Below are positions 30,649 through 31,050 of a stretch of 64,000 nucleotides of DNA, one piece after another; the first letter of the stretch is position 1; each line of letters begins with the position of its first letter. The notes below the pieces were generated by a model that saw nothing but the letters and a program-made list of their open reading frames with translations, had not been told where the DNA came from and ran no database searches. The stretch covers positions 1 through 64,000 of the forward strand of contig CADCJW010000003.1 of assembly GCA_902801845.1 (NCBI GenBank), given 5' to 3'. Both the position numbers and the translations under genes were made by a program. Origin of the DNA: an uncultured Eubacteriales bacterium (GTDB lineage Bacteria; Bacillota; Clostridia; Christensenellales; CAG-138).

Positions 30649-30719
30649 AGGGGCATGATGTAATGGTAACATAGCGGTCTCCAAAACCGTTCTTGAGGGT
30701 TCGAGTCCTTCTGCCCCTG
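30649..30719 (+). tRNA. tRNA-Trp (anticodon CCA)
   Basis: Acceptor stem AGGGGCA (30649-30655)/TGCCCCT (30712-30718), a D arm with TGGTAA, anticodon loop CTCCAAA with CCA at 30681-30683, T loop GGTTCGAGTCC and discriminator G at 30719. The CCA tail is encoded (30720-30722). A terminator follows at 30731. Confidence 0.95.
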
Positions 30720-30726
30720 CCAAAAA

Positions 30727-30757
30727 GAATCCCACCCATCCGGGTGGGTTCTTTTTA
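30727..30757 (+). terminator. Terminator of tRNA-Trp
   Basis: CCCACCC (30731-30737) pairs with GGGTGGG (30742-30748) around ATCC, then TTCTTTTTAT. The same hairpin and T-run recur at 30904-30930. Confidence 0.88.
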
Positions 30758-30760
30758 TAC

Positions 30761-30901
30761 GGCAGGGGCAGAAGGACTCGAACCGGGTTCGGGAGTGAAT
30801 CAGGCCCCGGTGGGGCGCCGCAACGCCCGGCTTTGCCGGTCTTATGCGCAGAGCCACGACCTGAGCGAGCCCGCAGGCGAGTGTGAGAGTCCGTGTTGAT
30901 G
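30761..30901 (+). repeat. tRNA-derived repeat, unit 1
   Basis: It starts with 30761-30784, a perfect inverted copy of the 24-base tRNA-Trp 3' end (30698-30721). A GCCCC-GGT-GGGGC hairpin (30793-30805) and a GACCTGAGCGAGCCCGCAGG segment (30858-30877) follow. Unit 2 shares the same order. It has no gene-like frame with an SD. Confidence 0.75.
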
Positions 30902-31050
30902 TACCACCCATCCGGGTGGGTTCTTTTTATACGGCAAGGGCAGAAGGGCTCGAACCCTGGTCGCGGGAGTGAATGAGGCTCCGGTGGAGCCTCAGAGCCG
31001 CGACCTGAGCGAGCCCGCAGGCGCGAATTCGAGTCCTTCTGCCCTTGCGC
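30902..31050 (+). repeat. tRNA-derived repeat, unit 2, a long closed hairpin
   Basis: A terminator copy (30904-30930) is followed by an element closed by a 21-bp stem: 30934-30954 pairs with 31028-31048 with one G-U. Inside are an 8-bp stem GGTCGCGG/CCGCGACC (30959-30966/30998-31005) and a perfect hairpin GAGGCTCC-GGT-GGAGCCTC (30975-30993). The right arm TTCGAGTCCTTCTGCCC equals the tRNA-Trp T-arm and acceptor 3' strand; the left arm is its inverse. The inner hairpin differs from unit 1 by a compensated pair. Confidence 0.78.

Follow-up and report, generated by a model that had tools for sequence, protein, structure and literature searches.

The window examined here is a stretch of 64,000 nt from an uncultured Eubacteriales bacterium (assembly GCA_902801845.1, contig CADCJW010000003.1, positions 1 to 64,000 of the forward strand), which begins with a partial 5S rRNA gene (1-83). 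On its plus strand lies a tRNA-Trp gene (30649..30722; CCA anticodon, CCA end encoded), called by ARAGORN and Rfam, and this gene is the host of two units that follow it on the same strand. Unit 1 starts with a palindromic, cassette-borne terminator (CCCACCC-ATCC-GGGTGGG with a T run; 30723..30760), beyond which stands an inverted copy of the tRNA-Trp 3' end (30761..30784). As the original prediction had claimed, the last 24 bases of the gene recur here in perfect form (30698-30721 versus 30761-30784; 24/24, 100% complementary, 39 nt spacing), and a perfect 24-nt match in this flank is far above chance expectation. The core that follows (30785..30880) is rearranged: its stem P3 is interrupted, its left half is equal to the lone unit of the sister genome G001, and a second hairpin (GCCGCAACGCC..TTTG..GGTCTTATGCGC; 30817..30849), also present in the distal tRNA-Pro unit (L019), is nested in the P3 region. 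A degraded direct tail copy with approximate limits ends the unit (30881..30901).

Unit 2 confirmed the predicted layout of terminator (30902..30932), inverted tRNA-Trp end (30933..30958; 92% against 30696-30721), hairpin core (30959..31023), and direct copy of the tRNA-Trp end (31028..31048; 20/21), the last of which pairs with 30934-30954 at 95% complementarity to close a 21-nt arm. Its core, termed core A, matched R1, a covariance model built on the 65-nt core, with 92.8 bits, and contains the stems P2 (30959-30966/30998-31005), P3 (30975-30993), and P4 (31013-31022), all on the plus strand. The compensated pair that had been noticed between the central hairpins of the two units was found as described (GGCCCC/GGGGC.. 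versus GGCTCC/GGAGCC). The claim of tandem units held in that two are present, with the 60-nt block 30732-30791 repeated at 30904-30963 at 92% identity, but unit 1 turned out to be a rearranged hybrid, which leaves unit 2 as the sole intact one.

A Genus-Wide Family of Cores

An initial similarity search with the window region returned more copies in the same genome and in every relative of the genus. Using R1, core A was detected in 12/12 genus genomes at 6-21 copies per genome, and in only 8 of ~290 other sampled genomes of the class. In the window genome (G000), all 14 cores were associated with tRNA or tmRNA genes: 11 lay within ~0.75 kb downstream of an intact gene, one lay 2.6 kb downstream of tRNA-Pro with a gene in between, and two followed 3' fragments of tRNAs. 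Units of the same layout, whose presence at other tRNA 3' flanks the original prediction had raised, thus occur in the window's own genome and in all genus relatives; the loci that we read each show the end of their own tRNA both direct and inverted. At L020 (G000:C2:264250), a tRNA-Leu-like 3' half precedes a cassette; this tail occurs once in the assembly, which means that the parent gene in intact form has been lost or is missing.

At tRNA-Trp itself, units across the class were confined to the window's genus, three species of genus g2, and G014, and none were found in the tRNA-Trp flanks of ~28 sampled genomes from other families and ~18 other genera of the same family. A few other families likewise have core A next to tRNA genes, namely at tRNA-Tyr (G072) and tRNA-Ser (G083 and G139), and in other Clostridia core A was found away from tRNAs as well, within generic palindromic repeats. 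We found no published description of such units in open-access text.

All comparisons were made on assemblies, and most of the genus genomes are probably metagenome-derived. N runs in some loci (L120, L125) would fit an assembly duplication, which the original prediction had named as a threat to its reading. However, the units are spread over many species with divergent cores and consistent, unique flanks, and independent genomes carry divergent cores at the same gene, which excludes such an artifact with near certainty.

Arms Fit the Local tRNA

In a core-free test, the 31-nt tails of 20 tRNA/tmRNA cluster ends of G000 were compared with the 500 nt downstream and upstream, a score of 11 or more being counted as a hit; five low-scoring tRNAs of this genome lay outside the tRNA listing. 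Downstream copies of the own tail were present in direct orientation at 16/20 cluster ends and in inverted orientation at 11/20, while the upstream control gave inverted copies at 0/20. Own tails outscored swapped tails for direct and inverted copies alike (permutation p = 5e-5, the floor of the test). The same layout with different cores was found at several tRNAs of G012 and G014, which belong to two other genera of the family; in these flanks (L145, L148, L144, L158, L161, and L164), arms made of the own tail surround unrelated, longer hairpin cores. It was absent from the tested tRNA flanks of G016 and of the other-family genome G025.

We then compared core identity with T-arm identity and found no correlation (610 pairs, rho -0.07; 12 isotypes, p = 0.55). 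For instance, the cores at tRNA-Trp in G004 and at tmRNA in G007 are identical at 62/64 positions, with the arms of each matching its own host. The idea that the units are lineages locked to one T-arm sequence was therefore rejected. Since core similarity is independent of T-arm similarity, it is the core that appears to spread and the arms that come from the target; as far as patterns in sequence can show it, the arms derive from the target tRNA. A different origin of the left arm, from the 5' half of the T arm, was also rejected: this arm reads GGGACTCGAA, the reverse complement of the 3' T-stem plus loop, and not AGGGTTCGAG. There are exceptions to the layout, as the inverted arm is unclear in some units (tRNA-Cys, and tRNA-Glu of G001) and the direct copy in others. 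At the tRNA-Pro locus, a core-A unit interrupts the T-arm copy that belongs to a different unit (TTCAAATC-TGAAA-GATTTGAA-core-CAAATCCCG).

Blocks Are Gained, Lost, or Reordered between Tail Copies

The block enclosed by two tail copies measures ~130 nt (mostly 129-135 nt) and consists of terminator, inverted T arm, and core. In G341, a unit-free genome of the sister genus, tRNA-Trp ends with CTGCCCCTGCCA and is followed by ACAAAGAAACCTCTTTTGTCTACC...; behind the G009 gene stands a different terminator, after which come an inverted arm, core A, another copy of CTGCCCCTGCCA, and finally a G341-like flank (40/43 nt). Because the G341 flank reappears behind the tail copy of G009, the block lies exactly between the tRNA end and the old flank. 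A flank behind the tail copy that equals the gene flank of another species was likewise observed at tRNA-Pro, tRNA-Glu, two tRNA-Ala genes, and tmRNA, and at five loci beyond tRNA-Trp blocks were gained, lost, or permuted. At the tmRNA, two blocks are arranged as P-Q in G000 and as Q-P in G001 (P 100% identical over 129 nt, Q 97% over 134 nt), a change of order that is cassette-like. Where a single empty site is concerned, precise loss via the tail repeats explains the difference equally as well as gain.

Terminators of the form CACCC..GGGTG were found at 17/35 core-A units versus 1/91 unit-less tRNAs, counts drawn from related genomes, for which a p value is only a guide. Given this enrichment, unit and terminator seem to move together. 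In the sequences compared, the cassette is bounded by tails on both sides, an arrangement in which the tRNA stays whole and gains a new terminator, with the old one displaced downstream; a terminator supplied in this way would mean that the tRNA still works. Together, the empty and filled sites, the precise tail-bounded blocks, and the permuted order support repeated integration at the tRNA 3' end, one of the two readings that the original prediction had put forward.

The 3' ends of tRNA genes are the usual target of tyrosine-integrase islands, and a directly duplicated tail with a displaced flank is the textbook outcome of such an insertion, so that the units could be scars or attachment sites of ordinary islands. 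But these islands leave neither inverted tails nor a common core at a dozen tRNAs, and no integrase gene was found within the units. A real island of ~35 kb is present at tRNA-Met (G000:C2 about 492700-528050; L021, L123); it has a 45-nt att and carries the original cassette untouched behind attR. An origin of the units from ordinary islands is hence quite improbable.

Stems Are Maintained as DNA

A structural alignment was built from 32 core-A units of 95 nt each. The fold consists of P1, in which the inverted arm pairs with the direct one, together with P2, P3, and P4, the last of which is small, and the conserved unpaired motifs are GTGAAT, AGAGC, and CGCAG. In P2-P4, 98.5% of the cells of the alignment were paired, 14/19 pairs had undergone two-sided change, and the changed cells comprised 117 two-sided versus 3 one-sided cases; when the partner column was slid by one as a control, pairing fell below 50%. 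The predicted fold is also very stable, with z about -6 to -7.

Such stability and covariation speak for an RNA, either a structured regulatory RNA or the read-through transcript that, in the original prediction, could base-pair with the acceptor and T arm of the tRNA. A G-U pair is roughly as good as a Watson-Crick pair in RNA, whereas in DNA it is a mismatch, and functional RNA stems accordingly tolerate it. We therefore counted G-U pairs in the unit stems and, for comparison, in the tRNAs of the sampled genomes (acceptor and T stems). They made up 3/599 standard pairs in the units (0.5%) but 120/1722 (7%) in the tRNA stems (Fisher p = 8e-13), the frequency in the units being 14-fold below that in the tRNAs of these genomes. 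This scarcity indicates that pairing is maintained as DNA, not as RNA. In addition, every unit has a terminator upstream, the stems avoid one-sided changes, core turnover is fast, and searches of the units against Rfam, T-box included, gave nothing above the gathering score except tRNA/tmRNA and, at a loose threshold, chance hits only. On the G-U depletion and the upstream terminators, we rejected an RNA function, which we consider very improbable. The original interpretation is thereby partly supported, with integration largely right and RNA regulation disfavored. Beyond this locus, the scarcity of G-U offers a clean worked example of how DNA-level hairpins can be separated from equally covarying RNA structures.

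G-U depletion also fits a mutational process with no mobile element at all. Replication template switching makes and keeps perfect stems in one step (PMC8794818), and it might act alone here, with the tail, the palindromic terminator, and the self-complementary T-loop (TTCGAA) giving rise to fold-back copies and the direct repeats expanding and contracting. The stems resemble those of hairpin evolution at quasipalindromes, as perfect stems, two-sided changes, and the lack of G-U steps or intermediates are the expected trace of template switching (PMC8794818), and the inverted arm sits behind a palindromic terminator, with hairpins nested within hairpins. However, template switching is a mutation process (PMC8794818) and supplies no spreading of a core between loci. 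It leaves unexplained both the conserved core, with its invariant unpaired GTGAAT, AGAGC, and CGCAG, at a dozen tRNAs in 12/12 genomes and the absence of the core at tRNA-Trp in the ~28 sampled genomes of other families; as the sole explanation, it is unlikely.

Candidate Driver Proteins

Between two tRNA-Pro units of the window genome, in the tRNA-Pro cassette array, lies a gene (L176:724-2832, equal to G000:C1:396623-398728) whose 702-aa product contains eight treble-clef zinc fingers of the DUF4379 type as well as a region that, judged by eye, resembles a Vsr/EDxHD nuclease. Relatives of this protein are encoded downstream of tmRNA and tRNA-Ser in G008 and G004, and DUF4379 genes are present in 3/12 genus genomes. 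The units could accordingly be nonautonomous satellites of an element whose DUF4379 zinc-finger nuclease is aimed at tRNA ends. In favor of this, the only DUF4379 genes of the genus stand directly behind tRNA-Pro, tmRNA, and tRNA-Ser; two of these genes are located within or next to units, and a remnant of the gene lies between the tmRNA units of G000. Against it, the gene is missing from 9/12 unit-bearing genomes, only 3 of ~17 DUF4379 loci outside the genus are behind a tRNA, none of them with arms, and the nuclease motif is a judgment by eye. We consider the satellite reading decidedly unlikely and rejected the nuclease as a general driver, being present in 3/12 genomes and, outside the genus, mostly not at tRNAs. 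Because 9/12 genomes are without it, it is more probable that the gene rides along as a passenger or homing-type guest than that it acts as the engine.

Two other candidates were rejected on their distribution. RAYT (PF01797) was found in only 2/12 genus genomes, and a reverse transcriptase (PF00078), as a target-primed retroelement would use, was also found in only 2/12 and not in G000.

A Putative Insertion Cassette

We lean, by a modest degree, towards the view that the units are miniature, protein-less insertion cassettes at tRNA/tmRNA 3' ends, whose arms are taken from the target and which work as DNA. In single-stranded or cruciform form, such a cassette would fold into a three-way-junction hairpin, the base stem of which would present a double-stranded tRNA end. 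Integration would most likely join this hairpin to the tRNA 3' end or copy it in, and fold-back synthesis by template switching could write the inverted arm. Joining at the T arm and 3' end would yield exactly the order tail, terminator, inverted arm, core, and tail, and the tail copies would then permit tandem growth, loss, and reordering. The enzyme might be a tyrosine recombinase of the host, either Xer or an integrase, with folded DNA as its substrate.

More tentatively, and with considerable reservation, the cassettes may represent a new class of mobile DNA that inserts at any tRNA/tmRNA 3' end, takes both of its ends from the tRNA that it hits, replaces the terminator, and moves as folded DNA, perhaps by host recombination machinery. 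Precise tail-bounded blocks at many tRNAs, arms that fit their targets, hairpins at the level of DNA, and the gain or loss and the reordering of blocks are all shown by comparison of the genomes. Elements that use tRNA ends normally recognize one tRNA; by contrast, near-identical cores occur here at a dozen tRNAs and at tmRNA, with arms fitting each gene. If the arms are copied from the target, the cassette would be site-specific in many places with no site of its own to carry, and tRNA 3' flanks would become cassette arrays.

Several known systems share part of these properties. Like the units, islands at tRNA 3' ends directly duplicate the tRNA end and displace the native flank, but they encode an integrase, whereas the units are ~130 nt long and gene-free, with an inverted arm and the same core at a dozen tRNAs. 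Integron cassettes with attC resemble the units in their tandem blocks, a folded, imperfectly palindromic site with a variable center, and the precise insertion and reordering of blocks at a recombination site, as in the tail-bounded gains and the P-Q versus Q-P order at the tmRNA. However, attC has conserved outer boxes common to cassettes, where the outer arms of the units are locus-specific tRNA tails, and integron arrays adjoin IntI, while the units have hardly any cargo and those in the window contain no integrase. In the single-stranded DNA integration of CTXphi, inverted att copies around a hairpin give a double-stranded site within one strand, on which Xer recombinases act. The unit layout is similar to these two inverted copies around a hairpin and, by analogy, the product layout would fit, although CTXphi targets dif and has phage genes, and the units target tRNA ends and have none.

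REP/REPIN and MITE-like repeats are, like the units, short, noncoding, dispersed hairpins with conserved unpaired motifs and many copies per genome, and generic clostridial palindromic repeats elsewhere contain core A itself. Yet REP/REPIN sequences are extragenic with no single gene class, whereas the units lie almost exclusively at tRNA/tmRNA 3' ends, have arms copied from the target, and bring a terminator; REP/REPIN are also RAYT-associated, and 10/12 unit-bearing genomes of the genus are without RAYT. In L252-L258 (IMG/VR contigs), L299, L300, L304, L305, and L308, core A is nested in the clostridial palindromic repeats, which around these non-tRNA copies read AGCCTCCCCT...GGAGGGGTTG and form hairpins within hairpins. 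Another viral contig (IMGVR_UViG_3300032167_000473; L251:11931-11983) ends in a unit of the tRNA/tmRNA type, as if a prophage had adjoined a cassette. Finally, ARAGORN reported a reverse-strand tRNA-Ser within a cassette (L004:1616-1702), and genome annotations may hold such false tRNAs.
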